Of a DNA stretch of 64,000 nucleotides, positions 3,373 through 61,315 are shown piece after piece. How positions within the stretch are numbered: position 1 is the first letter of the stretch; each line of letters opens with the position of its first letter. Source of the DNA: Magnetococcales bacterium (GTDB lineage: Bacteria > Pseudomonadota > Magnetococcia > Magnetococcales > Magnetaquicoccaceae); NCBI GenBank assembly GCA_015231755.1, contig JADGAZ010000019.1, positions 1 through 64,000 of the forward strand. Reading direction: 5' to 3'. The notes beneath the pieces were generated by a model. It was given only the letters and a program-made list of their open reading frames with translations, made no database searches and had not been told where the DNA came from. The position numbers were made by a program, and so were the translations under genes.

Positions 3373-5513
3373 GCAAACGGCCCCAAGAATCCCTGATGGA
3401 CTATCCGAAAGCCACCGGCATCCTGGAAGACTTTGCCAGGCTTTCGGATTTCGGTGCCTGTCTGGTGCCTTTGCTGCATGCGGTGGGCTATCGGGGAGAT
3501 TTGCGGCATGTGGCCGAATCCCTGCCCCACTTCGCCGAGTCCCTGGATCTGACCGGATTGCGCAACGTCATGGCCAATCTCACCTTTCAAAGCCATGAAC
3601 TGCGCATCAATCAAAAACAGATCGATCCCCGTCTGATGCCCTGCCTGTTTGTTCCCGATCAGCAGGGAGCCATGGTACTCTACGAACAGACCGGCGACAT
3701 GCTGCTGATTTTCGACGGATCGACCGGAAAAGTCGGAAAGATCCCTCCCATGGATCTGGTGGGATCGGTTTTTTTCTTCAAGATATTCGATCATGAAATG
3801 ATGTCTCTGGAACAAAACCGCCTGGGTTGGTTGCGCATGATCACCAACCGCTTCCGGAGATATTTTTATTTCGTAGTCGCCCTCACCTGCGCCATTACCG
3901 TGCTTCAAGTGGCTCCGCCGCTTTATTCCATGGCGGTCTATGACCGGGTGATCGGTTCCCACTCCATGCAGACTCTGGCCTATCTGGTGATCGGGGTCTT
4001 GCTGGCGTTGGGCTTCGATTGGGTGTTGCGGGTCATGCGGGCCCGTATGCTGATGCATGTGGGCGCCCACATGGATAGCATCGTGAGCAGCGCCATTTTC
4101 CTGCGGATTCTCTCCCTGGTGCCCTCCTACACCGAACGGGCACCCATCGGTTCCCAGGTGGCCCGGGTGAAGGATTTCGACACGGTGCGGGAATTTTTCA
4201 CCGGCCCTTTGGCCTTGGTCTTTCTGGAGATGCCTTTCACGGTCATCTTTCTGGTGGTCATGGCGAGTCTGGCCGGCACTCTGGCCTTCATTCCCGGCAT
4301 CACCGCCTTGTTGTTTGTGGTACTGTGGTTCGTGATGAGTCCCCTGGTGGAAAACGAAGGGGCCAGAGCCAGACGCTCCCGGGCCAAACAACAGGAATTT
4401 ACCGTCGAAATCCTCAACAAAATCCGTGCCATCAAGTATCTGGGCGCCGAGGAGATGTGGTTCGACCGTTACCGGGAACTCTCTGCTGAAACCAGCATGC
4501 AAAACTTCCACTCCTCGTTGATCACCGCCGCGGTCAACACCGTGGCACAACTGCTGGTGGTGGGATCGGGACTGATCACCGTGAGCATTGGTGTGTTGCG
4601 GGTGCTGGCCGCCGAAATGACCGTCGGGGGACTGGTGGCCTCGATGATTCTGGTGTGGCGGATTCTGGCTCCGCTGCAAAGCATCTTCTTCGCCATGACC
4701 CGCATGGAACAGATCCGCTCCAGCATCAAGCAGATCGACGGTCTCATGAACGTCAAGCCCGAATTTGAAGCCTACGCCCCCATCGAACCGATCAAAAGCT
4801 TTGAAGGGGCCATCAGCTTTGTACGGGTGAGTCTGCGCTACACCAACGAAGCGGAACCGGCGCTGATGGGGGTGAGCTTCGAGGTCAAACCCGGTGAAGT
4901 GGTGGTGATCGTCGGCAGCAACGGTTCCGGCAAATCCACGATCATCAAGCTGATCGCCGGATTGTATCTGCCCCAGGCGGGCAGCATCCGCATCGACGGT
5001 CAGGACCTGCGCCAGATGAATCCCATCGAATTGCGTCACGCCGTAGCCTATGTGCCCCAAAAATGTGACCTGTACCACGGCACCATTGCCCAGAATCTGC
5101 GTCTGGCCCACGCCACCGCCACCATGGAAGAACTGGAAAACGCCTGTCGCATGTCCGGAGTCCTGGAGGATATACGCGCCCTGCCCCGAGGTTTCGATAC
5201 CCGCATCGGCGACAACGATGCCGGACAACTGGCCTCCAGCACCGTGCAGAAAATCTCCTTGGCCCGTGCCTATCTCAAGCCCTCGCAGATTCTGTTGTTC
5301 GACGAGCCCGCCAGCGCCCTGGACTGGGAAGGGGACCAGGCCTTCCAGAAAGCGGTGCAACAGTTGCGAGGCAAGTCGACGATTTTCATCGTCACCCATC
5401 GTCCCAGCCACATGCGCCTAGCCGATCAACTGTTCTTCTTCGATCAAGGCTATCTGAAGCTTTCCGGGCCACCGAACGAAGTCCTCCCCAAGATCCCGCA
5501 GAACCTGATCTAG
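3369..5513 (+). CDS. Second type I secretion ABC transporter (LapB-like layout)
   Basis: A 714-residue inner-membrane exporter. Residues 1-150 form an N-terminal domain placed like the C39-like domain of HlyB/LapB exporters; no catalytic Cys motif is visible, so it would be non-proteolytic and might bind cargo. Residues ~155-430 are the transmembrane domain. The ATPase has Walker A GSNGSGKST (~516), Q-loop YVPQ, Walker B ILLFDEP (~640) and an H-loop in IVTHRPS. The signature motif is degenerate (LASSTVQK in place of LSGGQ). Walker B Glu and the H-loop His are kept, so ATP hydrolysis is plausible. It overlaps the first exporter at the start and is followed 12 bp later by the HlyD adaptor. Together with the TolC-like channel this gives a full type I secretion machine. 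Confidence 0.88.
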   Translation: MSKRPQESLMDYPKATGILEDFARLSDFGACLVPLLHAVGYRGDLRHVAESLPHFAESLDLTGLRNVMANLTFQSHELRINQKQIDPRLMPCLFVPDQQGAMVLYEQTGDMLLIFDGSTGKVGKIPPMDLVGSVFFFKIFDHEMMSLEQNRLGWLRMITNRFRRYFYFVVALTCAITVLQVAPPLYSMAVYDRVIGSHSMQTLAYLVIGVLLALGFDWVLRVMRARMLMHVGAHMDSIVSSAIFLRILSLVPSYTERAPIGSQVARVKDFDTVREFFTGPLALVFLEMPFTVIFLVVMASLAGTLAFIPGITALLFVVLWFVMSPLVENEGARARRSRAKQQEFTVEILNKIRAIKYLGAEEMWFDRYRELSAETSMQNFHSSLITAAVNTVAQLLVVGSGLITVSIGVLRVLAAEMTVGGLVASMILVWRILAPLQSIFFAMTRMEQIRSSIKQIDGLMNVKPEFEAYAPIEPIKSFEGAISFVRVSLRYTNEAEPALMGVSFEVKPGEVVVIVGSNGSGKSTIIKLIAGLYLPQAGSIRIDGQDLRQMNPIELRHAVAYVPQKCDLYHGTIAQNLRLAHATATMEELENACRMSGVLEDIRALPRGFDTRIGDNDAGQLASSTVQKISLARAYLKPSQILLFDEPASALDWEGDQAFQKAVQQLRGKSTIFIVTHRPSHMRLADQLFFFDQGYLKLSGPPNEVLPKIPQNLI

Positions 5514-5525
5514 GAACCTTAAGCC

Positions 5526-6866
5526 ATGTCTGCCACCCCTGCAAAAACCATCCAATTGGGCAACCGCCAACAACGGTTTCTGGCCCAATCCATGATCCTG
5601 GAAGAAGGTGGACTGCCCCTGTTGATCCGCGCCACCGGCATGGCCGTATCGTTGGCTGTGGCGACCTTTCTGGTGTGGGCCTCCTTTTCGGTGCTGGAAG
5701 AGATGGCCCCGGCTTCCGGAGAGGTGGTCACGCAGCATCCGATACACAACGTACAACATCTGGAGGGGGGAATCGTTCAGCAAATTCTGGTCAAGGCGGG
5801 CAACATCGTTTCACAGGGGGAGACGCTGGTTCGCCTGGACCCGGCACCGATCCTGCCGGAATTGAAACAATATCAGGCCCGCCGTCAGGCTCTGGCCTTG
5901 ATGATCGAACGGCAACGGGCTTTTCTGGAAGGGCGTGAACCCCATTTCGCGCAGGTGGCCCCGGAATCCAGCCTGCTGGTCAAGGATCAGGACAACCTGC
6001 TCCACTCCCAGCGCACCCATCAGGCGAGCAGCGAAGAGGTGATTCGGCGTCAGGTGTCCCAGAAAGAGACCCAGGTGAAAGAATTGACCGGACAACTGGA
6101 GCCTTTATCCCGTCGGCAGAAACTGCTGGACGAGGAATTGGGTATTCAGGAAAAAGGGCTGGCCAAGGGATTGGTATCCCAGCTTTCGGTTCTGGCCACC
6201 AAACGAGAAAAAATTCGCGCCATCGAGGAGATGACCCGGATCCGGAGCAGTATCGCCCAGACCCGCATCGAGGTGGAGGAGTTGCGGAGCCGACTGCTGG
6301 AAAGCGATGAGCAACGGCGTCACGATGCGCAAAAAGAGTTGAACAGCGCCCTGGCCGATCAGTCCCAGTTGGATGAGCAGATTACCCGTTTGACGGATCG
6401 GGTGGCCCGACTGGACATCACCGCTCCGGTGCGGGGAGTGATTCAGGAGATGGGACCCAGCACCCTGAAAGGGGTGATTCCGCCGGGGGGACTGGTGGCC
6501 AAGATCGTGCCTTTGGGAGAGACGCTCCACGCGGAGATTCGCATCACCACCCGTGACATCGGTCATGTGAAGGTGGGTCAACCGGTGACCATCAAGGTCA
6601 TGACCTACGACTACGCCCGTTACGGCACCATTGCCGGCGAGTTGCAATCCATCTCCCCGGACGCCTTCATGGATGAAAAACAACAGCCCTATTTCAAAGG
6701 ACTGGTGCAGTTGTCCGCCACCCATCTGGGGTCACAGGCCGGGGTCAACGAAATCCTCCCCGGCATGACCGTTCAGGCCGACATCCACACGGGCAGTAAA
6801 ACCCTGATGGCCTATCTGCTCAAACCCATCTACGCCTCGATCAACGAAGCGTTCCGGGAACGCTGA
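5526..6866 (+). CDS. HlyD-family type I secretion periplasmic adaptor
   Basis: A 446-residue membrane-fusion protein that would bridge the ABC exporters and the TolC channel. A short cytoplasmic N-terminus is followed by one transmembrane helix (~residues 38-58). A first lipoyl/barrel half comes next (HLEGGIVQQILVKAG, ~75-90), then a long charged coiled-coil hairpin (~115-290, many Gln/Glu/Arg heptads). The second lipoyl half (LDITAPVRGVIQEMG, ~297) and a beta-barrel domain follow. The length matches HlyD/LapC adaptors. An AGGA ribosome site lies eight bases before the ATG. It is the last gene of the operon; the TolC-like gene comes toward it on the other strand, 57 bp away. Confidence 0.9.
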   Translation: MSATPAKTIQLGNRQQRFLAQSMILEEGGLPLLIRATGMAVSLAVATFLVWASFSVLEEMAPASGEVVTQHPIHNVQHLEGGIVQQILVKAGNIVSQGETLVRLDPAPILPELKQYQARRQALALMIERQRAFLEGREPHFAQVAPESSLLVKDQDNLLHSQRTHQASSEEVIRRQVSQKETQVKELTGQLEPLSRRQKLLDEELGIQEKGLAKGLVSQLSVLATKREKIRAIEEMTRIRSSIAQTRIEVEELRSRLLESDEQRRHDAQKELNSALADQSQLDEQITRLTDRVARLDITAPVRGVIQEMGPSTLKGVIPPGGLVAKIVPLGETLHAEIRITTRDIGHVKVGQPVTIKVMTYDYARYGTIAGELQSISPDAFMDEKQQPYFKGLVQLSATHLGSQAGVNEILPGMTVQADIHTGSKTLMAYLLKPIYASINEAFRER

Positions 6867-6923
6867 AACCCCACGCCGAACCAGCCAACGATCACCGCCA
6901 ACACCAATGGGATGTACCCATGA

Positions 6924-8444
6924 TTACGGCAACCCGGATCCGCCCACCATGGCGGAACTCTCCTGCCAAAGCAATTCGCTGGCCTGATCCAGGGTTTCGA
7001 CCGCCGGTGAAGCGTGCGACTCCGACACCTTGGGAGACTCGGAGACTTTGGGGGTGGCCCACTCCTCCACATCGGCTTTCACCTGGATGCTGACTGACGA
7101 CGGCATCTCCGCTGGTTTATCGATGGAAAAGGTCTGACGCAACAGCCCCACGGCCGCCAACAACCGATAACCGGCGGTTTGTTGTTCGTAGTTTTCGTTG
7201 ACGCGGGCATTTCTGGCGGTGGTCAATTCGTTTTCGGAGTTCAGCACGTCCAGCAGAGGGCGCAAGCCCATGCGGAACTGCTCGTGATAGGCGGTGGTGA
7301 CTTTCTGTTTGGATTCCAGATGTTCATCCAGACGGGTCAGCCGTTCCCGGGCGATCTGCATCCGGTCCCAGGCCACCCGGACATCCTCCAGCACCGTGGC
7401 CTGAGCCTCATCCAGCAACCCCTGGCTGCGTCCGACCTGTTCGGCGCTTTCCCGCACCGTGGCCAGATCCGAGCCGCCGTGAAACAGATTGACATTCAAA
7501 CGCACCATGGCCCGCACGTTTTCGCTGTATCCCCGCGTCCCGCTGACATTATCCGTGTTGGAATAGCCCACATCCAACCCCAGCTTGGGCCAATAGCGGG
7601 AATAATTGCCCGCATGGGTGGCCTTGGTCGAGGCCAGTTCCCCCTTGGAACGCATCAACGTGGCATTGAGGCGCAGAGCCTGATCCATGGCCACCTGCAA
7701 GGATCCGGGCAGAATGGCCGAAGACAGCACAGGCGGCTCCAGATGGCCTGGTTCCCGACCCACCAGTCGATGAAAACGGGTCGCGGCCTTGTGTACCGCT
7801 CCAGAGGCGGAAACCAGATCGGAAACAATCAATTTCAAACGACTGGCGGAGAGTTCCGCATCCACGGAGGTGGTGATGCCCAGACTGGCCATGTCCTGGA
7901 CCCGGGCCAGAATCTGACGGTGCAATTGTTCCTGATCCTGAAGCAATTGACGCAATTCCCGCTGCCTGAGCACCTCCAGATAGGCCAGAATGGTATCCAG
8001 AGCCACCTCATCGGCAGCGGTATCCAAGGCGGCCTGTTCGGTCCGCTCCCGGGCGTCGTTTTCCGCCACCTGATGCCAAGTGGAAAAACCATCGAACAGG
8101 GGTTGATTCAGATTGACCTGCAACTCCCCCCGACGCAGACGATTCTCCCCCTCGGTAAGCCGGGTGGACGTGGTATCGTTCCACTCCTCCCCGGTTCCCA
8201 GGCTCAGGTCCAAAGATGGCAGATAACCGGAAACCGCCCGGGCCTTGCGCTCTCGGATCGCCTGCAGGGAACGACGCGCCGCCTCGATGCGGGGCGTTTC
8301 CCGCAAGGCGCTCTGCACCGCTTCCGCGAGGGTCTCGGCGCGGGCATCGGCATGGGGCAGCCCGAGCCATAGCGATAACACACCCAGGCAACAGGGAAAA
8401 AATCGACGTTTTGGTTTTCCGGTACACCACGCGGCGCGGGCCAT
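6924..8444 (-). CDS. TolC-family outer-membrane efflux/secretion channel
   Basis: A 506-residue protein with an N-terminal signal peptide (Arg-rich start, hydrophobic LGVLSLWLGL, probable cleavage after ADA near residue 34). It shows the duplicated TolC helical pattern: ETLAEAVQSALRETPRIEAAR near the start of the mature protein, LNQPLFDG in the first half, and LNVNLFHGG with VRVAWDRMQ in the second. It would form the outer-membrane conduit of the adjacent type I secretion system. The ATG at 8444 has a GGGAGA ribosome site. It lies downstream of and on the same strand as the acetate-sensing operon, separated by 96 bp, and is convergent with the HlyD gene. The last ~60 residues (repeated KVSES, Ser/Glu-rich) are low complexity. 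Confidence 0.9.
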   Translation of the reverse strand: MARAAWCTGKPKRRFFPCCLGVLSLWLGLPHADARAETLAEAVQSALRETPRIEAARRSLQAIRERKARAVSGYLPSLDLSLGTGEEWNDTTSTRLTEGENRLRRGELQVNLNQPLFDGFSTWHQVAENDARERTEQAALDTAADEVALDTILAYLEVLRQRELRQLLQDQEQLHRQILARVQDMASLGITTSVDAELSASRLKLIVSDLVSASGAVHKAATRFHRLVGREPGHLEPPVLSSAILPGSLQVAMDQALRLNATLMRSKGELASTKATHAGNYSRYWPKLGLDVGYSNTDNVSGTRGYSENVRAMVRLNVNLFHGGSDLATVRESAEQVGRSQGLLDEAQATVLEDVRVAWDRMQIARERLTRLDEHLESKQKVTTAYHEQFRMGLRPLLDVLNSENELTTARNARVNENYEQQTAGYRLLAAVGLLRQTFSIDKPAEMPSSVSIQVKADVEEWATPKVSESPKVSESHASPAVETLDQASELLWQESSAMVGGSGLP

Positions 8445-8540: not shown

Positions 8541-11279
8541 TCAGATATCCTCCAGATCACGGGGCAACAGGAATTGAAACGCCGCCCCTTGACCCAACTG
8601 GCTCTCCACCCAGATCCGCCCCCGGTGACGATCGATGATCCGTTGGCAAATGGTCAAGCCCAACCCGGTACCCAGGGGAACATCCTTGGTTTCATCCCGC
8701 GCCTGATCCACCTGATGAAACTTCTCGAACACCTTTTCCAGGTCGTCCTTGGGGATGCCCGGTCCGTTGTCGGTCACGGTCACCCCGACGCCTTCCGGGC
8801 CTTCGTGGGTGCGAACCTGAACCATGCCGGTTCCGGAGACGCAGAATTTGACGGCATTGGACAACAGATTGATCACCACCTGAATGATCTTGTCCCGATC
8901 CGCCCGCAACAACACCGGATGGTCCGGAGCCTGGTGGATCATGCGCACGGATTTATTCTCGAACAGTTGATGGGTGGCGTCGATGGCGTCACGGGTGATC
9001 TCCACCAGATCCACCTGGGTCAAATGCCACTCCATCTTGCCCGATTCGATCCGGGCCAGATCGAGAATCTGGTTGACCAGACGGGTCAACCGTTCCGCCT
9101 CCTTGATGATGATTTCCGTAAACTTGTGACGATCTTCCGACTCCATCTCCTCGTTGTCCCGCAGAATTTCGGAGAAGGCACGAATCGAGGTCAAAGGGGT
9201 GCGCAGTTCATGACTGACGGTTGAAATGAACTCGTCTTTCAGCCGATCCAACTCCTGCAACCGTTCGTTGGCCTCTTGCAACTGACGGGTGGCCGCTTCC
9301 AACTGACGGGATTTCAACTCCAGCCGCTGGCTGTACTCGATCACCTGACTGGTTTCGTCCAGGATGCGCATCACCCCATGGAGATCCAGCTCCTCGCCCT
9401 TCACCACAGACGACACCATCACCCGGGCCGAGGCCGAACCAATAGCCCCGGTCAGCCGTTTCTCCGCGAACGCCACCAGATGGGCCGGCGCCTGGGACTG
9501 TTCGTCGAGCTTGAGAAGGCGGTGCTGAAGATAATTGGAGAAATCCAATTCAGCCTGGACTGGTCCGATAAAACGCGACACCAATTTTTTCAAATCCGCC
9601 ACCGAGACGAAACCGCTCCACAGGTATTCGTTGCCCCCCTTGGCTCCCTTCTCGAAGACATTGACAAAATTCAGAGCCTGAATCTGTTCCACGGCGGTCT
9701 GACGATCAAACAGGGAAATCACCACCAGAACCCCGACATTGGCCAGCAGGCTCCAAAAAACCGAATGGGTAATGGGATCAAAGACCGTCAGTCCAAACAA
9801 AGCCTGGGGTTTCAACCAGCCGATGCCCCAGGGACCATGGTGCAAAAAGCTCTCCGCGATCCAGCCGGATTTGGCGAACGAGGCGAACAGCAACGTATGG
9901 GACCAGACCACAAAACCAGCCACCAATCCCCCCAAAGCCCCGCGCCGACTCACTCCGGGCCAATAGATTCCGATGAGAATCGCCGGGGCGAACTGGGCCA
10001 CCGCCGCGAACGAAATGATGCCGATGCTCACCAGGGTATGGGATTCACCGATCAGCCGGAAATAAAGATACCCCAGAAACATCAAACCGATGATGATCCC
10101 GCGCCGGATGGTCAGGATCATGCCCGACAGATCCTCCCGGAACGCGGCGCGAAACCGCAGCAGCAACGGCAAAACCAGATCGTTGCTGACCATGGTGGAC
10201 ATGGCGATGGCCTCGACGATCACCATGCTGGTGGCCGCCGACAATCCCCCCAGATAGACGAACAGGGCCAACCACACCTGCCCTCCATGAATCGGCAGGG
10301 TCAACACATAGGTATCCGGATCCATGCCCTGGCCCGCGAAGATCAACCGTCCCGCCAGGGCGATGGGCAGCACAAACAGATTGAAGGCCAACAGATACAA
10401 AGGAAACAGCCAAGCGGCCTGACGGATGTGGGCCGGATTGACGTTTTCCACCACCAGCACCTGAAACTGGCGGGGCAGGAACAAAACCGCCATCATAGCC
10501 AGCAGGGTCATGGAAAACCAGGAGACATATCCCCCGGGCATGGCCTCGAAGGTCATCAGGCGCCGCACTCCCGGATCGGCCATGGCCTTGGTGAAAAGAT
10601 CCCCAAAACCATCGAACATTCCAAAAGTGACAAACAGCCCCACGAACAAAAAAGCCCCGAGTTTCACCATGGATTCAAACGCGATGGCGGTCACCATCCC
10701 TTCATGGCGTTCGCTGGCATCCAGATGACGGGTACCGAACAGAATGGAAAACAACGCCAGGATCATGGCCACATACAATGCGGTATCATCCCAGGGCGCG
10801 GATGGCCCCCGGATGGCCAGATCCGCATCCAGACGATGAACCAGCACATCCAGACTGACCGCCACCGCCTTCAACTGCAAAGCGATGTAAGGCATGATGC
10901 CGATCACCACGAACAAAGTCACCATGCCCCCGAGCAAAGGACTCTTGCCATAGCGGGAGGAGATGAAATCGGCGATGGAGGTGATGTGATTGACTTTGGA
11001 GATGGCGATGATCTTGCCCAGCAGAAAAATCCACAACGCGGCCATGATGGTGGGACCAAGAAAAATGGGCAGAAAACCGATGCCGGTTTCCGCCGCCCGT
11101 CCCACGCTGCCGTAATAGGTCCAGGAGGTGCAATAGACCGCGATGGAAAGCGTATAAATGGTGGGATTGTTGACCAGAGAGCGACCGTTGGCCGCGCGCC
11201 AGTCCGCATGATAGGCCACCGCGAACAACAGCCCCAGATACAACACCGAAACCAGAGGAACAATCCACTGCCAGGACAT
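8541..11279 (-). CDS. Sodium:solute symporter-histidine kinase fusion (CbrA/CrbS-like)
   Basis: A 912-residue membrane sensor kinase. Residues 1-~500 form a sodium:solute symporter domain of about 13 helices (for example SVLYLGLLFAVAYHADWR and VYCTSWTYYGSVG). A linker and a coiled coil (LELKSRQLEAATRQLQEANE, ~650) follow. HisKA has the phospho-acceptor His in STVSHELRTPL (~residue 689), and the HATPase has N, G1 and G2 boxes ([30 protein letters not shown]). CbrA and CrbS proteins of this architecture control carbon-source and acetate responses. Gene order here (acs, actP, DUF294, receiver, exonuclease fusion, CbrX-like, this gene) supports acetate or carbon-flux sensing. Whether the symporter half transports or only senses cannot be told. 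Confidence 0.88.
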   Translation of the reverse strand: MSWQWIVPLVSVLYLGLLFAVAYHADWRAANGRSLVNNPTIYTLSIAVYCTSWTYYGSVGRAAETGIGFLPIFLGPTIMAALWIFLLGKIIAISKVNHITSIADFISSRYGKSPLLGGMVTLFVVIGIMPYIALQLKAVAVSLDVLVHRLDADLAIRGPSAPWDDTALYVAMILALFSILFGTRHLDASERHEGMVTAIAFESMVKLGAFLFVGLFVTFGMFDGFGDLFTKAMADPGVRRLMTFEAMPGGYVSWFSMTLLAMMAVLFLPRQFQVLVVENVNPAHIRQAAWLFPLYLLAFNLFVLPIALAGRLIFAGQGMDPDTYVLTLPIHGGQVWLALFVYLGGLSAATSMVIVEAIAMSTMVSNDLVLPLLLRFRAAFREDLSGMILTIRRGIIIGLMFLGYLYFRLIGESHTLVSIGIISFAAVAQFAPAILIGIYWPGVSRRGALGGLVAGFVVWSHTLLFASFAKSGWIAESFLHHGPWGIGWLKPQALFGLTVFDPITHSVFWSLLANVGVLVVISLFDRQTAVEQIQALNFVNVFEKGAKGGNEYLWSGFVSVADLKKLVSRFIGPVQAELDFSNYLQHRLLKLDEQSQAPAHLVAFAEKRLTGAIGSASARVMVSSVVKGEELDLHGVMRILDETSQVIEYSQRLELKSRQLEAATRQLQEANERLQELDRLKDEFISTVSHELRTPLTSIRAFSEILRDNEEMESEDRHKFTEIIIKEAERLTRLVNQILDLARIESGKMEWHLTQVDLVEITRDAIDATHQLFENKSVRMIHQAPDHPVLLRADRDKIIQVVINLLSNAVKFCVSGTGMVQVRTHEGPEGVGVTVTDNGPGIPKDDLEKVFEKFHQVDQARDETKDVPLGTGLGLTICQRIIDRHRGRIWVESQLGQGAAFQFLLPRDLEDI

Positions 11280-11286
11280 GTTTTTC

Positions 11287-11496
11287 TTAGTTCTTTTCCA
11301 TGGGTCCGCGACGCATGGCCAGGGCGATCATGGCGACAAAGCCCAGCCAAAACACAAACAGGTACAGCCACAACACCGGCACGCCCCAGATCATCCGATC
11401 CAGGCTCACCAGGGACAATACCGGATAGTTGATGGCCAAAGCCCCCAACAGGGCCAACACCACCAGACGCTCCTTGCGACGTTTCATCATGGGCAT
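11287..11496 (-). CDS. Small two-helix membrane protein upstream of the symporter-kinase (CbrX-like)
   Basis: Encodes 69 residues (MPMMKRRKERLVVLALLG...). It has two hydrophobic segments (LVVLALLGALAINYPVLSLV and VPVLWLYLFVFWLGFVAMIAL) with a basic start and a charged end (RRGPMEKN). The ATG at 11496 lies one base after the stop of the exonuclease-fusion gene and the symporter-kinase starts 7 bp downstream, so all three are translationally coupled. A small hydrophobic protein in exactly this place, CbrX, is known upstream of cbrA in pseudomonads. Equivalence rests on position and topology, not a sequence match. A longer reading frame upstream overlaps the previous gene and was not used. Confidence 0.7.
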   Translation of the reverse strand: MPMMKRRKERLVVLALLGALAINYPVLSLVSLDRMIWGVPVLWLYLFVFWLGFVAMIALAMRRGPMEKN

Positions 11497-11497: not shown

Positions 11498-13624
11498 TCA
11501 GTAGTTGGCCTCGGCTTGTTGACGACGGATCCGCACCATGCTGTCGGAAGCCCGCATGGCAAGTCCCAGGGTGGAAATGCCTTTGGCTTTCAGCAGTTCC
11601 AACAACCGCTGAAACACCTCCGCCGTGACCATGGCATCCCCCATGGCGGTATGGCGCAGATGGGTCTGCACATCGACCCCGAGACGCTCGGCGATGGCAT
11701 CCAGGGTATGATCCGTCACCTCGTCGTGGAGATAGACCGAAAGCAGCAGGGTATCGAGCACCGGATTGTCGAAACGTACCCGGCACGCCTCCTCCTTGAG
11801 CTGCAAAAAACGCATGTCGAAGGCGGCATTGTGAGCCACCAGCACCGAGTCGCCGACAAACGCCTTGAACTGGGGCAGCACCTCTTGAATGGTGGGTTTA
11901 TCCGCCACATCGGCGTTGGTGATGCCATGAATCCGGATCGACTCCTCGGGAATGGGACGACCGGGATTGATCAAGCGCTCGAAACGTTCTCCCAGCAGCA
12001 CACGACCATTCACGATGCGCACACCGGCCAAGGCGATGATCTCATCCCCCCTGGAAGGCTGCAACCCGGTGGTTTCGCTGTCGAAAACCACATAGCTCAA
12101 ACCGGAAAGGGACATGGCCAGCCGGGTGCCCAGGGAGTCGAAGGCATTCATCAACGAAAAATCATAAAATTCCGGACGCTCCGGAATCTCTTCGACCGGA
12201 AATTTCCACTGCCGGGGCGACGGGGCCACCGGCAGACGCAACATGGCATATCCGGGGCGCCGATGGGGTTGACTCCAGACCTCACAGCCGTGACGTTCCA
12301 GAATCTCCTCCAGACGGATCACCGCGCCACCGTCTTCCAGCTTGATGGCATGCCAGGATTCCACCTCCGAGGCGGAAATGGGAATGCCGGGCCAGATCAG
12401 ATCCAGATAGATCCGATGATTGCCCATCAAGGCCTCTACCTCGACGCCCACCGAACCCGCATGCTCCCGGATTTTTTGCATCATGCGTTCCAGCGCCAAC
12501 AACAAAGCCGGCGCATCGGCCTGAATCCACAAAGCCTCTCCCACCGGATGGACCGGCACCCCGCCCCGATATTTTTCCAGCCGTCTGGCCAGGGCGTCGA
12601 TCAGATCGGAGGTGAGCACGTCGTTCAAGATCCAGTGTTCGGAAGCCAACGTGTCGGCCTCGGTGGCAATGGAGTCCAGACGCACGGAGAGTTCCCCCAC
12701 CTCGTCATGCATCACCGCCACGAACCGTTCCCGGGCTTCGGGTTCCATGTCCCCATGGTCCATGAGGGTTTCGGCAGCGGCGCGCAAATTGGCCACCGGT
12801 CCCCGGATGTTCTCCAGGGCGTGACGGATCAGCCGGTCGCTGCGCCGCAAACCCGAGACCCGACGGGTCGCCTCCTCGAAGGTGATGAGATAAAAATTCT
12901 GCTCCGCCTCATGACACGGAAACAGACTCATGGCGCAATCCAGCATCACGTCTTCGTGTATGGCCGCGCAGAAAAAACGCGCATCCCCCTTGTCCGCACA
13001 GCCGTTTGGGGTGGCGTGACACCGGTTGAGAAACTCCATGGTGGTTTCCAGAGGAGTACGGGCGCACAGTTCGTACAAGGATCGGCCCAGTCCCAACGAG
13101 TCCTGACGGTTGCGGAACAGATTCTGGGCCGCCACGTTGTACAACACGATGCCCGCATCCGCATTGATGACGATCAACCCGACATTCAGGTGTTTGATCA
13201 CCTTTTCCAGACGTTCCATTCCCGCGATCTGATTGGCCAGCGCCTCATGGACCTCACGCCGGGCCTGCAACAGGGCGGTTCCCATCTGACGCGCCGAATC
13301 CGGCAACGCTCCCAACAGATGATCCGATTCCAAGATGATCTCATGGGTCGGGTCGGCATTGGCGATGATGGCAAGATCCCGACTGACATGGACCAGAGGT
13401 TTGAGCAAAACCTTGTCCAGCCAGGACCAGATCTGGACCAGCACACCGCCGAGCAGAAACAGTACCAGCAGCGACAAGGCCACATGGGTATGCAGCCAAC
13501 CCAGGGTTGTGCCATCCAGTTCGGGCAGATTGCGGTTCGCCTCCCAGGCCACTCCCGCCAGAGCACCCAGGGCAAGCAGCAAAAAAGCCCCCAGAATCCA
13601 CCAGAATTGATGACGACCGTTCAT
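11498..13624 (-). CDS. Membrane PAS/degenerate histidine kinase fused to a DnaQ-like 3'-5' exonuclease
   Basis: A 708-residue fusion. Two N-terminal transmembrane helices (~5-25 and ~43-65) precede a HAMP-like linker, a PAS domain (~155-275, [18 protein letters not shown]) and a region laid out like HisKA plus HATPase (~285-495). In the HisKA-like helix the phospho-acceptor is missing: [11 protein letters not shown] stands where SHELRTPLxxI is expected, and no G boxes are evident. Residues ~508-690 are a DEDDh exonuclease with motif I FDSETTG (~515), motif [12 protein letters not shown] and motif III HTAMGDA, so nuclease activity is plausible. The gene sits between a receiver protein and the CbrX-like/kinase pair. 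DnaQ-like proteins are known neighbours of DUF294 genes, but this membrane-kinase layout is unusual. Its target (DNA, RNA or a nucleotide) is unknown. Confidence 0.82.
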
Positions 13625-13632: not shown

Positions 13633-14010
13633 TCAATCGTTTTTCAGGCCGAGCATTTCCCGCACCTTGAGAACCAGTTCACGGGTGGCGAAAGGTTTGG
13701 TCACATAATCATCCGCCCCCAAGGCCAATCCCTTTTCCTGTTCCACCTCCCGCCCCTTGGCGGTGAGCATGATGATCCGTACCCCCTGATAACGGGAATC
13801 GGCACGAATCGCCTCGCACACCTCATAGCCGTTCTTTTTGGGAATCATGACATCCAGCAACACCAGATCGGGTTTCCTCTCCTCAACCGCCTGAAGCGCA
13901 GCATCGCCATCACCGACCGATCGGACCGAAAAGCCCTCCTTTTTCATGAGAAATTCCAAGGACAAAACGATGTTGGGCGCGTCGTCCACGATCAAGATTT
14001 CAATCGGCAT
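13633..14010 (-). CDS. Single-domain response regulator (CheY-like receiver)
   Basis: A 125-residue stand-alone receiver. It has the acidic pocket (LIVDDAP), phospho-acceptor Asp in LVLLDVMIPKKNG (~54), the conserved Thr/Ala switch (MLTAKG) and Lys in TKPF. No output domain is present. The ATG at 14010 was chosen because GGGAG lies just upstream; the longer open frame adds six residues. It sits between the DUF294 and exonuclease-fusion genes, so it is a likely phosphorylation partner of the symporter-kinase. How it passes the signal on is not evident, because no DNA-binding domain is fused. Confidence 0.88.
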   Translation of the reverse strand: MPIEILIVDDAPNIVLSLEFLMKKEGFSVRSVGDGDAALQAVEERKPDLVLLDVMIPKKNGYEVCEAIRADSRYQGVRIIMLTAKGREVEQEKGLALGADDYVTKPFATRELVLKVREMLGLKND

Positions 14011-14029: not shown

Positions 14030-15484
14030 CTATTGTAGCTGTCTCAATCTGAAATGATGGCTGATCAATTGCTTGAATCCATCCACCACCCCCAGGGAAT
14101 CACGCAGATACTCCCGCTCCAACCGACCCAAATCATCGATCAATAGATAATCCCCATCTCCTCCGTGCCGCATCCGGGCATCCAGCTTCACCCGCACCCG
14201 CAGGCCAGAAAGAAAATCAAACGCATCGATCAAATCGTTGCCCAGCGATTGTTCCAGCACCCCCCGACGGACCAGAGCGCGCAACCGATGGACCGTATTG
14301 ACATTTTTGAGCTTATGTTCCAAGGCCAGACTGCGCACCCCATGGACAATCGGGAAGACGCCGCCCTTCTTGATATCAATTTGCCCCTGTTTGTTCCCTT
14401 TTTCCACGATAAAACGGTTGAAGAGTCCCAATGGGGTCTCGAAGGACAAAACCGGCATGGCAAAATGCGCGTAAAAAGTCGGATCGTTGGGAAGGTGATC
14501 CAGAAAAAAATCCCGTGCCCGGCGAAACAGACCGTAATGGCCCGCCACGGGGCGAGAGTCATAAAATATGGCCAACTGCATCAAGTTGGAAGGAGAAGGA
14601 TTGCGAATCCAGTTGAGAAACAGCCCCTCATACGCATCGACCCGACCGCCCCACTGGGGATTGGTCATCATGACGTTGCCGGGACACGGCGGATAACCCA
14701 ACTGGATCAAGGCCGTAGTAAAGGCGTGACAAAAGGCCTGATACGCGATGACGGAACATTGATCATCGGCGATGAGGGCGTTGTCCTGATCGCTTTTGAT
14801 GATCTGTTCTCCCCGACCTTCGCTGCCCATGACCACGATGCACACATGATCGAGCAGATCCGGGGGAGACAGGATGTTGGCCGTTTTTTCAAATACTTGA
14901 CGATCCAGTTCCCGCACCAGACGGCTGATGTAACGGGGCTTGACCCCCTTGGTGACCAAAGAATCCACCAGATGAGGCTGATGGCTGGTGGCATAGGCCA
15001 GTTCGGACAAGGTGGAGGCGCGTAGAATACGCTGAATGGTCAACGAGGCGTGATTGGTCAAAAAGGAGAGCAACTCGGTCAAACCCAGAATGCCGGTGAC
15101 CTGCCCGGCTGAACCCACCACCACCCGGCTCACCCCCCGCTTGGTCATGATGAGCAACGCCTTGAACAGCAATTCGTCCGGGGAGGCCATGATCAGTTTC
15201 CAGGTGGCGATCGGGCCTATGGGGGCATCCACCGGAAGTTCGGACAAGGCCAAGGCATCGCGGATGTCGGCACTGGTCAAGACCCCGTGTCGGGTCTCGT
15301 CCCGGACCAAAAGCGCGTCGATACGGCGCGCGCGCATTTTCGCGGCCGCATCACGAATGGAGGTACACGCATCCAGGATGACAGGCTTGGTCAAATCCAG
15401 ATCCCGGATGCGTGAGGTCAACAAAGGAACGTCGGAATTCTCGGAGTCCAATGCACGGATCCCAGGCCATGAAAGCCGGACCAT
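14030..15484 (-). CDS. CBS-pair / DUF294 nucleotidyltransferase-like protein
   Basis: Encodes about 484 residues. Two CBS repeats come first (~25-85, DACTSIRDAAAKM; ~95-150, MTKRGVSRVVVG). A GlnD/KNTase-type nucleotidyltransferase-like domain follows with GSEGRGEQ and SDQDNAL (~217-235), then the DUF294 C-terminal domain. The usual N-terminal cyclic-nucleotide-binding domain of this family (~600 residues) is absent, giving a short form. Members commonly lie next to acetate permease and DnaQ-like genes, as here, and are thought to be adenylate-responsive regulators; substrates are unproven. The ATG at 15484 has no ribosome site and lies in a perfect 15-bp hairpin. TTG at 15451, preceded by GGGAT, is an alternative start. 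Confidence 0.85.
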   Translation of the reverse strand: MVRLSWPGIRALDSENSDVPLLTSRIRDLDLTKPVILDACTSIRDAAAKMRARRIDALLVRDETRHGVLTSADIRDALALSELPVDAPIGPIATWKLIMASPDELLFKALLIMTKRGVSRVVVGSAGQVTGILGLTELLSFLTNHASLTIQRILRASTLSELAYATSHQPHLVDSLVTKGVKPRYISRLVRELDRQVFEKTANILSPPDLLDHVCIVVMGSEGRGEQIIKSDQDNALIADDQCSVIAYQAFCHAFTTALIQLGYPPCPGNVMMTNPQWGGRVDAYEGLFLNWIRNPSPSNLMQLAIFYDSRPVAGHYGLFRRARDFFLDHLPNDPTFYAHFAMPVLSFETPLGLFNRFIVEKGNKQGQIDIKKGGVFPIVHGVRSLALEHKLKNVNTVHRLRALVRRGVLEQSLGNDLIDAFDFLSGLRVRVKLDARMRHGGDGDYLLIDDLGRLEREYLRDSLGVVDGFKQLISHHFRLRQLQ

Positions 15485-15519: not shown

Positions 15520-17214
15520 TCAGTGATTGGAGGCTCCAGACGCACCGATGCCGGTTTCGCAGCGAACGGCCTGCGCATCGAAGAGATTACGCTCGGCCTG
15601 AGCCTGTTGGCTGCCATCGAGCTTGGAGAAGAGCCAGCAACCGACAAACGCCAACGTCATGGAGAAGATGGCCGGATCCTTGTAGGGGAACAAGGGGGCT
15701 TTGTTGGCCAGCACATCCACCCAGACGGTTTTCGACAACACCACCATGGTCACGGTGGAGATGAGACCCAAGGATCCACCGATCATGGCGCCACGGGTGG
15801 TAAGATTCTTCCAGTAGATGGAGAGAATCAGGATCGGGAAGTTGGCCGAGGCGGCAATGGCGAAGGCCAGACCCACCATGAAGGCCACATTCTGCTTCTC
15901 GAACTGAATCCCGAGGAAGATGGCAATGACGCCGATGACCAAAGCGGAGAATTTGGAGATGCGAATCTCCTTGCGCTCGTCCACTTTCCCACCACAAATG
16001 GCGTTGGCATAGATATCGTGGGAGACGGCGGAAGCACCCGCGAGGGTCAAGCCGGAGACCACGGCCAGGATGGTGGCGAAAGCCACGGCGGAAACGAAGC
16101 CGAGGAACAGATCACCGCCGGTGGCATGAGCCATATGGATGGCGGCCATGTTGTTGCCACCATTCAAGGTACCCTTGATCGCATCCACATACTGGGGATT
16201 CGGAGCGACCATCACCACGGCACCAAAGCCGATGATGAAGGTAAGGATGTAGAAATAACCGATGAAGCCAGTGGCATAAAAGACCGATTTGCGGGCCTCT
16301 TTGGCGTTGGCCACGGTGAAGAAGCGCATGAGGATGTGGGGCAGTCCGGCGGTTCCGAACATCAGGGCCATGCCCAGAGAGATGGCCGATACCGGATCCG
16401 AAACCAGACCACCGGGTGCGAAGATATCCTTGTTGCCGGAGACCACCGCCTTGTGATCCGCCAGACCACTGGCTTTGACCCCTTCCATGGCGCTGCGGAA
16501 GAAGGCTTCCAGGTTGAAGCCCACATGATTGAGGGCACCGAAGGCAATGAAGGTGGCGCCCGTCAGCAGCAGAACGGCCTTGATGATCTGCACCCAGGTG
16601 GTGGCGATCATGCCACCGAAGGCCACGTACAGGATCATCAACACGCCGACGATCACCACCGCGGACTCATAAGGCAGCCCGAACAGGGTGCGAATGAGCT
16701 GACCTGCGCCCACCATCTGGGCAATCAGGTAGAGGATCACGGTAAACAGGGTTCCCAAAGCCGACAGAGTCCGAATGGGCACCCGGGACAGGCGGAAAGA
16801 AACGATGTCGGCGAAGGTATAACGGCCCAGGTTGCGCAATTGTTCGGCCATCAGGAAGAGAATGACCGGCCAACCCACCAGAAAGCCGATGGAGTAGATC
16901 AGTCCATCGTATCCCTTGGCGAACACCATGGCGGAGATACCCAGGAACGAGGCCGCCGACATGTAGTCACCGGCGATGGCCAGACCATTCTGGAAGCCGG
17001 TGATCCCGCCACCCGCCGCATAGAAGTCTTTGGTCGACTTGGTACGCGAGGCGGCCCAATAGGTGATGGCCAGGGTCACCGCCACGAAGATGAAAAACAT
17101 GACGATAGCGGTGATGTTCATTTTGCTCTCCGGTTTGGCCGCGTCAGCCGCCCAGAGCATCGAAGACCAGGATCCGGCGACGAGCGCGGATGCGAGAGCC
17201 GTCAACTGTTTCAT
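15520..17214 (-). CDS. actP: Cation/acetate symporter ActP
   Basis: A 564-residue sodium:solute symporter of the acetate permease branch, in the inner membrane. It starts with a cleavable-looking signal sequence ([20 protein letters not shown]), as in E. coli ActP, followed by about 13 transmembrane helices. Family segments include [33 protein letters not shown] and [18 protein letters not shown]. It takes up acetate, and probably other short carboxylates, for Acs. The ATG has a strong AAGGAGGAG site and overlaps the stop of the DUF485 gene by four bases. A hairpin just after its stop separates it from the regulatory genes. The Acs-DUF485-ActP set is the classical acetate scavenging module. 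Confidence 0.95.
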
Positions 17215-17534
17215 TTCGTCTCCTCCTTGATCTGACGGGTCAATTCATCGAATTCGCCATTGGCCCGACGTACATAAATTCCGGTCAGGAGGAAAGCCGA
17301 GACGATAATGCCAGCCCCGATGGGAATGCCAATCGAAATGACGCTCCCTTCAGAAATTTTCGTGCCCAGAGATTTGGGCGCGAAGGCGACCACCAGAATG
17401 AAGGCATAATAGATGATCAGCATCAGCCAGCTGAGTTTCCAGGCAAAGCTGGAGCGTTTGGTCACCAGCTCCGTGTATTTGGGATTCTTTTGAATCCGCG
17501 CGATGAGTTGTCCGTCTTGTGGATCATTATTCAT
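17211..17534 (-). CDS. yjcH: DUF485 inner-membrane protein (YjcH-like)
   Basis: A 107-residue protein with two transmembrane helices (~35-57 [19 protein letters not shown] and ~70-92 [20 protein letters not shown]) and a charged C-terminus. It matches the DUF485 proteins encoded between acs and actP in many bacteria, which are presumed to help the permease. The start was set at 17534 because AAAGGAGA precedes that ATG; the longer open frame would extend into the acs-side spacer. Its TGA overlaps the ATG of actP. Confidence 0.92.
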
Positions 17535-17733: not shown

Positions 17734-19674
17734 TCAGGCGGTGGGCTGACGTTCGTCAATGAGCTTCTGCACCACACCCGGATCCGCCAAAGTGGTGGTA
17801 TCGCCCATGTTTTCGAGTTCGTTGGCCGCGATCTTGCGCAGAATGCGACGCATGATCTTGCCGGAACGGGTCTTGGGCAGACCGGGAGCCCATTGCATCA
17901 CGTCGATATGGGCGATGGGACCGATCTCCTTGCGGACCAGGGCACCCAGCTCCTTGCGCAGGGCGTCCGACGGCTCCTCGCCGACCATCAACGTCACGAA
18001 GGCATAGATGCCCTGCCCCTTGATGGCGTGGGGATAACCGACCACAGCGGCCTCGGCGACCTTTTCGTGCAGCACGAGGGCGGATTCAATCTCCGCCGTA
18101 CCCAGATTGTGGCCGGAGACGATGATGATGTCATCGACGCGACCGGTGATCCAGTGATAGCCATCCTCGTCGCGACGGCAGCCGTCGCCGGGGAAGTAAC
18201 GTCCCGGATAGGCGGCGAAATAGGTGTTGAAGAAACGCTGATGATCACCGTAGACCGTGCGCATCATGCCCGGCCAGGGACGGGCGATGGTGAGAATGCC
18301 GGTGGTGGCTCCTTCCTGCAACACACCTTTTTCGTCCACGATCTCCGGAATGATGCCGAAGAAGGGCAGCGTGGCCGAACCGGGTTTGGTGGGGGTGGCA
18401 CCAGGCAACGGGGTGATGAGAATACCACCGGTTTCGGTTTGCCACCAGGTATCCACGATGGGGCAACGGCCCTGACCCACGGTGTGATAATACCACTCCC
18501 AGGCTTCGGGATTGATGGGTTCACCCACGGAACCCAACAGACGCAGGGAGGAACGGCTGGTGCTGTTGACAAAGGCATCGCCCTGGGCCATCAGAGAACG
18601 GATGGCGGTGGGGGCGGTATAGAAAATATTGACCTGATGCTTGTCGATCACCTGCCAGAAGCGGGAAGCGTCCGGATAGGTGGGAATGCCCTCGAACATC
18701 AAGGTGATACCGCCATTGGACAAAGGCCCATAGACGATGTAGCTGTGACCGGTGATCCAGCCCACATCGGCGGTACACCAATAAACATCCCCTTCGTGAT
18801 AGTCGAAGATGTAACGATGGGTGATGGAGGCGTAGAGAATATAACCACCCGTGGTGTGCAGCACCCCTTTGGGCTTGCCGGTGGAACCGGAGGTGTAGAG
18901 GATGAACAACGGATCCTCGGCTTCCATGGGTTCAGCCGGGCAGACCGGATCGGCGGCGGCGATGGCGTCGTGATACCAGACATCCCGGGTCGGATCCATG
19001 GGAACATTGCCACCGGTCAGACGGACCGTGAAAACGGTGTGAACCGACGGGCATACCTTGACCGCCTCATCCACATTGACCCGCAACGGAATTTTCTTGG
19101 CACCGCGCACCCCTTCGTCGGCGGTGACCACCGCGCAACTGGTGGCATCCTGGATACGATCCTTGAGGGACTCCGGGGAAAAGCCGCCAAATACCACCGA
19201 ATGGACCGCGCCGATGCGGGTACAAGCCAGCATGGCCACGGCGGCTTCGGGGATCATCGGCATATAAATGCAGACCCGATCACCCCTTTTGATATTGCGC
19301 GCCTTCATGGCGTTGGCGAAACGGCACACCTCTTCGTGCAACTGACGATAGGTGATTTTTTTTGAATTGTTGGGATCATCTCCTTCCCAGATGATGGCGG
19401 TCTGATCGCCCCGGGTCTCCAGGTGGCGATCCAGACAGTTGTAGGAGACATTGAGTTGGGCGCCATCGAACCAGCGGATATGGGCTTTGTTGAAATCCCA
19501 ATCCATTACCGTGTCCCACTTCTTGAACCAGTGAATGAACTGATCCGCCTGCTCGGCCCAGAAACCTTCAGGATCCTGAATCGAACGGGCATACATAGCA
19601 TCGTATTGTTCCCGGTTGATCAGTGCGTTGGAAGCGATCTGGGGGGGAACGGAATAGATTTTGTCACTGCTCAT
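17734..19674 (-). CDS. acs: Acetyl-CoA synthetase (AMP-forming)
   Basis: A 646-residue cytosolic enzyme that makes acetyl-CoA from acetate, ATP and CoA. It is full length. The adenylate-forming motifs are present: [11 protein letters not shown] (~265), WWQTETG (~415), the [11 protein letters not shown] region (~500) and the acetylatable Lys in [11 protein letters not shown] (~610). One oddity is that the motif normally reading GHR(L/M)GTAEIE is [10 protein letters not shown], with Asn in place of the conserved Arg near the nucleotide. AAGGAG precedes the ATG. Upstream are paired direct repeats. It heads the acetate operon that continues through yjcH, actP and the sensing genes. Confidence 0.96.
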
Positions 19675-20394: not shown

Positions 20395-21033
20395 TCACGA
20401 TCTCGACTGGATAGGCCCCTCTTCTTGCAGGCCCAGAAAATAATGCACGGCCAGACAGAGCATGCCCATTACCATAAAAATCAAACTGCCCCCAGCCGAG
20501 GGAGTCGTCTCCAGCACCGACTCATCCGGTTGGTCCGGATTGAAAGCGACCAGCACCTGTTTGCCCTCCGGATAGCGTTGCACCACCCGTTGGGCGAAAT
20601 CCCGAAACAAAAACAGTTGATCACCGAGACCAAATTCGACACGATCGCTACGATAATTTTTCTTGTCAAAGGTGTAGCCGTACTCCACACGTGTCACATA
20701 AAAAAAACGCTCAAAACGCCCCGACAGCTTGCTTTTATCGACAACCAAGGCAGACTGGACGATGGTACCCTCGACGATCGGCCAGGATTTGCTCTCCAGG
20801 GAGCGATGCCAGGGATAATAACCACTGGTGATCAGAAAGCCCCCCATGACCAACAACAAAAAACGCAACAACATGATGATCCTGTTTTCCCGAACGGGTG
20901 GTGGAGCGAGGGGAGTGCGCTTTTGAAAGGAGTGTCCGGGAGGTGCTCCCGAAGGTCCATCATGGTCGTCGCCCATGAGAACCAGGGAGCGCCAGTCAAC
21001 CAGATCGGTTCCACGAAATTGCTGCATGATCAT
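20395..21033 (-). CDS. DUF3592 domain membrane protein
   Basis: A 212-residue protein. A polar ~50-residue start precedes a transmembrane helix (~53-72, IIMLLRFLLLVMGGFLITSG). A periplasmic-type domain follows with the DUF3592 pattern: WPIVEGTIVQS, a Tyr-rich strand with VEYGYTFDKKNYRSDRV, then YPEGKQVLVAFNPDQPDESVLE. It ends in a second helix (~185-203). The function of the family is unknown. AAGGAG lies seven bases before the ATG. It follows citrate synthase on the same strand by 60 bp and is probably co-transcribed with it. Confidence 0.8.
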   Translation of the reverse strand: MIMQQFRGTDLVDWRSLVLMGDDHDGPSGAPPGHSFQKRTPLAPPPVRENRIIMLLRFLLLVMGGFLITSGYYPWHRSLESKSWPIVEGTIVQSALVVDKSKLSGRFERFFYVTRVEYGYTFDKKNYRSDRVEFGLGDQLFLFRDFAQRVVQRYPEGKQVLVAFNPDQPDESVLETTPSAGGSLIFMVMGMLCLAVHYFLGLQEEGPIQSRS

Positions 21034-21092: not shown

Positions 21093-22388
21093 TCACGACG
21101 CTTTGTAGTCACTCCCGACATCGCGACGCTTGTGACCCGTATACAACTGTCTGGGACGACCGATGCCTTCGTCCGTACCGATCATTTCGTTCCACTGAGC
21201 GATCCAGCCCACGCAACGGGAGACCGCAAAAATCACGGTGAACATGTTGGTGGGAATGCCCATGGCGGAAAGAATCACACCCGAATAAAAGTCCACATTG
21301 GGATAAAGCTTCTTGCGGACAAAATACTCGTCTTCCAGGGCGATCTTTTCCAGTTCCAACGCGACATGGAACAACGGATCATCCCCATGACCCAATTCTT
21401 CGAGCACTTCCCTGGCCGTCTTGCGCAAGATGATCGCGCGGGGATCGTAATGCTTGTAAACCCGATGACCGAATCCCATCAACCGGAAGGGGTCATTGGG
21501 ATCCTTGGCCCGTTTGATGAACTCGGGGATGCGCTCCACGCTGCCGATTTCGTTCAACATCTTCAGGACCGCCTCGTTGGCGCCACCGTGGGCCGGACCC
21601 CAAAGAGAACCGACACCCGCCGAAATCGCGGCAAAGGGATTGGCCTGGGAAGAACCGGCCAGTCTCACGGTGGAAGTGGAGGCGTTCTGCTCATGATCGG
21701 CGTGCAGGATCATGATCTGTTCCATGGCGCGGGCCAGGGTCGGGGAGACCTTGTATTCACCGCAGGGTGTGGCCAACATCATGTGCAGGAAGTTTTCGGC
21801 GTAACCCAGATCGTTGCGGGGATAGATGAATGGCTGCCCCATATAATACTTATAAGCCGCCGCCGCGATGGTCGGCATCTTGGCGATGATCCGGAAGGCC
21901 GAAACCAGACGATGACGGGGATTACGGATGTCCAGGGAGTCATGATAGAAGGCGGACAGGGCACCCACCACACCCACCACGATGGCCATGGGATGGGCGT
22001 CACGACGGAAACCACGATACATTTGCAGCAATTGTTCATGCATCATGGTATGGTTGAGAACAATCTTCCGGAATTCGGTACTTTCCTGGAGGGTAGGCAA
22101 TTCGCCGTTGAGCAGCAGGTAACACACCTCCAGATGATCACATTTTTCCACCAACTGCTCCACCGGATAACCCCGATAAAGCAGAATGCCCTCTTCACCA
22201 TCAATGAACGTAATCCGACTGCTGCATGACGCCGTGGAACGGAAACCGGGATCCAAGGTAAACAGACCCAATTCCTGGTACAAGCGGGAGATATCGAAGA
22301 CATCCGGTCCCTCGGTGCCGTGCAGGATGGGAAATTCGGCTTCGCGATTGGTACGATTGTCACGAATGGTGATGGTATTTCTGGACAT
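21093..22388 (-). CDS. gltA: Citrate synthase (type II)
   Basis: A 431-residue cytosolic enzyme condensing acetyl-CoA and oxaloacetate. The catalytic motifs are present: GPAHGGANE (His ~268), [13 protein letters not shown] (His ~309) and the Asp in YPNVDFYSG (~365). The N-terminal beta domain and length match hexameric type II enzymes such as E. coli GltA. The start at 22388 has AAGGAG; the longer open frame adds 23 residues without a site. In a genome that also encodes KorAB and a fumarate reductase-like complex, this enzyme could run forward in an oxidative cycle or in reverse as the citrate-cleaving step. Sequence cannot decide. Confidence 0.95.
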
Positions 22389-22476
22389 CAAGTCTCTCCT
22401 TCGTGGTGCCTTGGCGATCAAAATGGATGGAAGTTGGGCTTGATCCGGTTCCTTCATGAACCGGGAAAAAAAGAAA

Positions 22477-59301: not shown

Positions 59302-60254
59302 TGGATCAAGGCGCCTGACAGACCTTGCATCAATTCAAAATAAAGCTCCGGCCCCTCTTTCATCGCCGCCCCCAAAGGATCCAGCACACCGATGCGCACC
59401 GGATGGCTGGCCGCCACGGTTTCGGCCAAACGGGGGGAGTATTGGGGTTCGGTGAACAGACAAACCGCCCGGGTCTCGGCGATCCGTTTGGCAATTTCCT
59501 GGACTCGGCGCGCCCCCGGTGGACGCTCGGGATGCACCATGATGGAGCCTACCGTGCCCAGGGCATACCGGTGTTCAAAGTATTGATACGCATCGTGGAA
59601 TACGATATAAGGCCGCTGGCGCACCGGAGCCAGATCCCGTTCCAACTGCCGATCCAACGCCTCCAGCCGTTGGGTCAAACCGGTCGCGTTGGCCTGATAA
59701 CGGGCCCCATGGGCCGGATCCACAGCCGCCAATGCCCCGGCGATGGCCTTACCCATGGCCATGGCATTGCGGGGATCCAACCAAGCGTGGGGATCGGTGG
59801 GACCGTGGGCCTCCCCGTGTTCCGATTTGCCGCCATGGTCGTGATCGTGGTCATGGCCATGATCGTGCCCCTCTTCCTCCCAGGCTCCTCCGGCGCGGAC
59901 CGGCAGACGGCTCACCCCGGAAGCCTCCAGCAATGCCACCTTGACCGCCTTGGGAGCCAGATTTTCCAAGGGACGCACCAAGAAACCCTCCAGCCCGACC
60001 CCGCCCCAAAAAATCAGCTCCGCCTTGGAGAGCAGACGGGCATCCGAAGGTCGCAGCGCATAGGTGTGTTCGGAGACATGTCCCTGAATCAACAACCGGG
60101 GTGCACCCTCCCCCTCCATCACCGCCGCCACCAGCGCATGCAACGGTTTGATGGAGACCACCACCTCCACCGCCCCGACCGGCACCGGAATCCCCCACAA
60201 CAAAGCGGCCAGACACATGCCGCGACCCCATGCGGTCCACCCGGAATGTTTCAT
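59286..60254 (-). CDS. znuA: Zinc ABC transporter substrate-binding protein
   Basis: A 322-residue periplasmic protein. The signal peptide ends near [10 protein letters not shown] (~28). Zinc ligands are the His in [10 protein letters not shown] (~38), the His in DPHAWLDP (~157) and YIVFHDAY (~220); the acidic ligand region is near the C-terminus. A His-rich mobile loop ([17 protein letters not shown], ~127-145) is characteristic of ZnuA. The ZnuB permease and ZnuC ATPase are not in the window. The start overlaps the stop of the secreted unknown protein by four bases. Confidence 0.9.
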
Positions 60255-61261: not shown

Positions 61262-61315
61262 GATTTTCAACGGTTCAAATCCCCGCACAGCCCAAGAGTC
61301 CACCGGTTCCCGCCG

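Follow-up and report, generated by a model that had tools for sequence, protein, structure and literature searches.

The window, meaning the whole 64,000-nucleotide stretch that was analysed, encodes on its minus strand a single open frame of 708 aa (11498..13624), in which a membrane hairpin, a HAMP-like coil, a PAS domain and a pseudo-histidine-kinase core (DHp and CA) are fused to a DEDDh exonuclease. We propose that this fusion would supply the exonuclease of a conserved pair, the other member being a nucleotidyltransferase, and that it has been put under two-component control.

A dead kinase core fused to a DEDDh exonuclease

The membrane hairpin (residues 1–60, 13445..13624) consists of two predicted long hydrophobic helices, and the structure model of the full fusion (pLDDT 88.4, pTM 0.55) places helices at residues 2–31 and 40–89. 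The PAS domain (residues 137–251, 12872..13216) gave a weak match at residues 137–204 that lies below the Pfam cut-off (E=0.0022); PF00989 was matched by 45 of 61 members of the fusion family. It is followed by a pseudo-DHp helical hairpin, the proposed receiver docking site (residues 253–330, 12635..12868), a pseudo-CA domain (residues 331–478, 12191..12634), the linker RPEFYDF between pseudo-CA and exonuclease (residues 483–489, 12158..12178), and the DEDDh 3′–5′ exonuclease domain assigned by motif (residues 510–705, 11510..12097), all on the minus strand. Pfam recognized RNase_T at residues 512–671 (E=1.9e-40) and neither HisKA nor HATPase_c in the fusion. Domain search and structure prediction together, as the sequence-only reading had proposed, recovered RNase_T, a kinase-like core and an exonuclease fold.

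A genome scan confirmed at least 581 candidate stretches, of which the 80 that were kept span Proteobacteria, Nitrospirota, and Chloroflexota. Among the matches listed, the closest named relatives of the protein, whose source genome comprises 3.84 Mb in 44 contigs, are Magnetococcales MAGs with 58–62% identity. Most close relatives carry full-length matches to the fusion, and full-length relatives retain the same key residues at identities of about 32–96%, which puts the observation far beyond chance. Across 100 aligned near-full-length proteins, which include some near-duplicates, Arg274 was conserved in 98%, Trp411 in 100%, Trp450 in 97%, and Arg463 in 99%; the linker residues R483, P484, E485, Y487, D488 and F489 were conserved in 97–100%, with residue 486 outside the 95% list. 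Judged from these alignments, the fusion is an old, conserved family and no local accident.

Hhalign matched the core of the fusion to that of the operon's sensor kinase (probability 99%, E=2.9e-18), and the motif ENIRGP, beginning at residue 271, is aligned with HELRTP of that kinase, so that Glu271 stands for the phospho-acceptor His. Among the 100 homologues, position 271 is Glu in 67, Asp in 13 and His in none. The ATP site has fared similarly: the G1 motif DNGPG of the operon kinase corresponds to L-I-W-P-G in the hhalign alignment, the G1 Asp is replaced by L/I/F/V/M in the family, the first G1 Gly is Trp in 100/100 homologues, and the N-box Asn and G2-like glycines are each retained in only 2. 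A substitute phospho-acceptor or G boxes at other positions of the fusion were looked for, and none were found. The fusion therefore lacks what defines an active histidine kinase (acceptor His, N-box Asn, G1 DxGxG, and G2 glycines), yet it has the DHp hairpin and Bergerat-type CA fold of a pseudokinase. Compared with solved structures, the fusion profile matched VicK (4i5s, residues 46–468, E=2.4e-19) and the pseudokinase DivL (4q20, E=1.7e-7). A separate model of residues 253–478 (pLDDT 91.7) matched histidine kinases with a best Z of 14.7 and DivL with a Z of 12.7. The large rmsd across both domains is presumably due to how they are placed relative to each other; matches of the CA domain only gave an rmsd of about 3. 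Read from its motifs, the core is a dead kinase that has lost both the acceptor His and the ATP site, and the pseudokinase assignment that the sequence-only reading had based on ENIRGP in place of HELRTP stands.

The exonuclease ligands D515, E517, D603, H658 and D663 lie in the ExoI–III motifs of a DEDDh (RNase_T/DnaQ) enzyme and occur in 100/100 homologues, in agreement with the earlier claim of intact DnaQ motifs. The exonuclease part of the full model resembled the PolC exonuclease (Z 24) and E. coli DnaQ epsilon (Z 21–22), and the domain looks like an intact 3′–5′ exonuclease. NF006602/PRK09146, the family of stand-alone DUF294-adjacent exonucleases, has a curated cut-off of 266 bits; the fusion scored below it at 71.4 bits and the protein of locus L170 scored 353.8. 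The fusion shares the DUF294 linkage of that family, the two genes lying in the same operon with the receiver gene between them. A search for anti-phage defence with PADLOC gave merely generic matches, of DEDDh type or to the receiver, and this candidate was rejected.

A carbon operon and the DUF294 partner

The operon reads, on the minus strand, acs, a DUF485 gene, actP, a CBS-DUF294 gene, the receiver, the fusion, a 69-aa membrane ORF and a CbrA/CrbS-type kinase, just as the neighbourhood had been described before. The acetyl-CoA synthetase gene acs (17734..19674) is followed by the DUF485 protein (17211..17534, start inferred from relatives), an actP-like SSF transporter (15520..17214, SSF E=1.8e-114), and a CBS-CBS-DUF294-DUF294_C nucleotidyltransferase-like protein (14030..15484). 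The stand-alone receiver of 125 aa (13633..14010, ATG at 14010, Response_reg E=8.5e-30) is phosphorylatable by motif. The position of CbrX, between the fusion and the kinase, is taken by the 69-aa two-helix membrane ORF (11287..11496), which matched no Pfam family and is CbrX-like in size and place only. The SLC5-type transporter-histidine kinase (8541..11279) has intact HisKA and HATPase domains and keeps H, N, DxGxG and GxGLG. Its N terminus matched MctP (E=1.2e-8) and the structure 10ed, a 'histidine kinase' (residues 9–467, E=5.5e-67), with no match to Pfam SSF; an SLC5-like N terminus together with an intact kinase core makes it a probable SLC5-STAC kinase, with the STAC part putative.

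Several further genes of the window were recorded. Upstream of acs, also on the minus strand, is a citrate synthase gene (21093–22457), separated from it by a DUF3592 membrane protein (20395–21033), and thus the carbon gene cluster may reach beyond acs. On the other side, a type I secretion set adjoins the operon at 1222–8444, with two ABC transporters, an HlyD-type fusion protein and an opposite-strand OEP/TolC-type protein. A chemoreceptor whose C terminus carries a hemerythrin domain and which weakly matches CZB is encoded at 37698–40472 on the plus strand. Also on the plus strand, an open frame of 837 aa at 60230–62743 had no Pfam match at 1e-5 and overlaps long opposite-strand frames, so it may be no gene.

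The partnership with DUF294 was examined in the DUF294_C genes of 299 evenly sampled genomes of the phylum. A DEDDh exonuclease gene adjoined DUF294 in 29 of the 30 best-scoring loci and in 37 of 39 further loci, the latter being our own non-random choice from the list with L323 left out, and nearly always lay directly downstream on the same strand; both sets together give 66/69. Thus, a DEDDh exonuclease is a near-obligate neighbour of the DUF294 nucleotidyltransferase. Furthermore, locus L276 (5500–7617, minus strand) encodes exonuclease-CBS-CBS-DUF294-DUF294_C as a single natural protein of 705 aa, adjoining an SSF gene, and the DUF294 catalytic residues (GS..DxD and the third Asp) are invariant in 132/132 proteins, including that of the operon. 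This partnership is the strongest functional clue, and that the two enzymes act together is strongly supported by genomics.

A nuclease had been regarded by the sequence-only reading as an unusual output for a carbon sensor. This view did not hold, since the nuclease is rather the standard partner of DUF294 and a stand-alone exonuclease/DUF294 pair already belongs to the MxtR/ErdR (= CrbS/CrbR) acetate-pyruvate regulon (PMC9927547). In Pseudomonas putida this pair is the operon PP_0353/PP_0354, which encodes a stand-alone RNase_T exonuclease and a CBS protein (PMC9927547). On pyruvate, deletion of pp_0353 slowed growth and deletion of pp_0354 had no such effect, so the two genes differ in phenotype (PMC9927547). 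Work on this system in P. fluorescens included the homologue of the DUF294 protein, whose mutant had no phenotype; the homologue of the CBS partner PP_0354 is annotated as a cAMP-binding, CBS and nucleotidyltransferase protein (PMC5715377). The open-access literature yielded no paper that combines DUF294 and an exonuclease, and a pseudokinase, a histidine kinase and an exonuclease appear together there only in a general review. The stand-alone pair is an already known MxtR/ErdR target, and no publication on the fused form was found in that literature.

Receiver, pseudo-DHp hairpin and SLC5-type kinase

The receiver conserves its phospho-Asp in 114/115 and its Lys in 115/115 proteins of the aligned set. 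Among 183 loci, 116 had both the DHp and the receiver, 52 had neither, 11 had a DHp with no adjacent receiver, one had only the receiver (L213, a threshold case), and 3 were undecidable. The presence of the receiver follows that of the hairpin, and each lineage without the hairpin was without the receiver too. This supports the earlier suggestion that the receiver could be the trigger and makes it the likely one.

Losses of the hairpin have taken different forms. In the Magnetococcales locus L057, a single MAG without independent confirmation, residues ~262–329, essentially the hairpin, were excised in frame and the receiver gene is absent, with DUF294 and the exonuclease retained. One Rhodobacterales clade has the hairpin tip deleted, the pseudo-CA kept and the receiver gone; another has a shortened but complete hairpin and has kept the receiver. 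The largest Rhodobacterales clade has lost the entire core as well as the receiver, which leaves a TM-HAMP-PAS-exonuclease of ~470 aa, and this form with no kinase relic was found in 42 Rhodobacterales loci. Co-loss of DHp and receiver amounts to about 3–4 events. In an independent-pairs test, 2 pairs were supported and the direction was mostly as expected; this is not significant, and the events are too few for a sign test. Covariation between receiver and fusion (108 pairs, Neff 78) gave no enrichment at the DHp, the top pairs being spread across all domains.

Two side observations concern these reduced forms. In L057 (10001–11908), the conserved pseudo-CA residues Trp424 and Trp450 were lost along with the hairpin while the exonuclease motifs show no change, which gives the impression that selection on the entire relay had ceased. 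The short form (L132–L136, L237–L274) is still near DUF294 and often near an SSF gene.

A profile restricted to the family's DHp was run against 16 genomes. Besides the fusion, its sole match in the source genome was the DHp of the SLC5-type kinase (E=7e-13). This kinase was also the best non-self match in most genomes that hold one, and in several of them its DHp scored above the fusion itself. By profile similarity, no DHp of the source genome is closer to that of the SLC5-type kinase than the pseudo-DHp. Because related DHp surfaces usually share one receiver, the simplest wiring would run from the kinase through the receiver to the pseudo-DHp. The conserved input thus looks like the SLC5-type kinase acting via the receiver, rather than a purely membrane signal.

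A proposed switch, its alternatives and known relatives

In the mechanism that we propose, the SLC5-type kinase would sense a small carboxylate, which the analogy to CrbS/MxtR suggests is acetate or pyruvate, and phosphorylate the stand-alone receiver. The phosphorylated receiver may then dock on the pseudo-DHp hairpin, itself predicted to be unable to take or relay phosphate. Docking, together with membrane and PAS input, would alter the pseudo-CA/RPEFYDF linker and switch the DEDDh exonuclease on or off. The exonuclease could trim 3′-terminal nucleotides put on by the CBS-DUF294 protein, the substrate common to both being probably a nucleotidylated molecule or the 3′ end of an RNA. We consider it somewhat probable that the kinase, through receiver docking on the pseudo-DHp, gates an exonuclease that opposes the nucleotidyltransferase. 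A more specific version, in which the two-component output is a reversible nucleotidyl tag that DUF294 adds and the exonuclease removes, with the kinase setting the balance via receiver-pseudokinase docking, is put forward only tentatively.

Among the alternatives, a membrane- and PAS-sensing exonuclease that degrades mRNA (e.g., of acs/actP or TCA genes), with the kinase relic and the receiver as minor modulators, appears unlikely. It would suit the relic-free form, which is stable in its 42 Rhodobacterales loci, and mRNA decay was speculated on by the authors of the PP_0353 study (PMC9927547). Nevertheless, it leaves unexplained the near-obligate linkage to DUF294 (66/69), the natural exonuclease-DUF294 fusion, and the fact that most lineages conserve both the pseudo-CA and the receiver.

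Somewhat less plausible still is a heterodimer of the pseudo-DHp with the SLC5-type kinase, in which the kinase conformation gates the exonuclease and the receiver forms a feedback element or an output of its own. In favour of this, the DHp of that kinase has the pseudo-DHp as its closest paralogue, and ChrS-HrrS is a known pseudokinase/kinase heterodimer (PMC9491836). Such pairing does not directly predict the joint loss of receiver and DHp, however, and Rhodobacterales genomes retain the SLC5 kinase at another locus whether or not they have the pseudo-DHp. Moreover, heterodimers of differently anchored membrane proteins are uncommon.

The tree placed the fused exonuclease domain near the PolC/DnaQ type and apart from the main stand-alone DUF294-linked clade, a topology that fits one origin or several. 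An ordinary DnaQ-type enzyme of DNA proofreading or repair with an incidental sensor-like N terminus would agree with the closeness of the domain to PolC/DnaQ exonucleases, but it is very improbable, given a separate DnaQ-like gene of the genome in the clade of E. coli DnaQ (L002), the carbon operon as locus, and a membrane anchor to which proofreading is ill suited. Least credible is a kinase core that retains catalysis by way of Glu/Asp271 as a non-His acceptor or of an atypical ATP site: position 271 is indeed acidic in 80/100 homologues, but the family as a whole has lost the Asn, the Asp, the first Gly and G2 of the ATP site.

Known systems resemble parts of the proposed switch. PP_0353/PP_0354 shares with the fusion locus a DEDDh exonuclease gene in an operon with a CBS-domain partner, the tie to an SLC5-STAC kinase regulon and, in some strains, a position beside actP. 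PP_0353, however, is reported as RNase_T only, with no membrane, PAS or kinase part, and control in P. putida is transcriptional via ErdR, whereas the fusion operon holds a stand-alone receiver and a pseudokinase. In the Caulobacter protein DivL, a core resembling that of histidine kinases functions without kinase activity and is linked to the receiver-only DivK (PMC9491836). The fusion likewise has a kinase-like core beside a receiver-only protein and matches DivL in profile and structure; in contrast, DivL acts on another kinase, CckA, and has no enzyme output. The acceptor position is Tyr in DivL and Glu or Asp in the fusion. The neighbouring kinase is of the CbrA/CrbS SLC5-STAC type, preceded by a small membrane ORF as CbrA is by CbrX (PMC13022988, PMC5715377). 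CbrA uses the sigma-54-type regulator CbrB and CrbS/RpuS use LuxR-type regulators, and a nuclease association is not described for CbrA, CrbS or RpuS (PMC13022988, PMC5715377). Finally, DUF294 and GlnD are pol-beta-type transferases of the same clan (PMC3710099). GlnD-type systems resemble the DUF294 pair in that a transferase is paired with a removing activity. In GlnD this activity is an HD domain of the same protein, whereas DUF294 would rely on a DEDDh exonuclease, which in most cases is a protein of its own.

Two-component outputs are mostly transcriptional, and the pathway of the fusion seems to end on an exonuclease, with a kinase relic seemingly kept as a receiver-binding switch. The natural series of full, hairpin-deleted and relic-free forms provides ready-made comparisons of how this switch works. 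The fusion offers a direct entry to the long-unknown pair of DUF294 and DEDDh exonuclease, which is widespread in Proteobacteria, including model pseudomonads.
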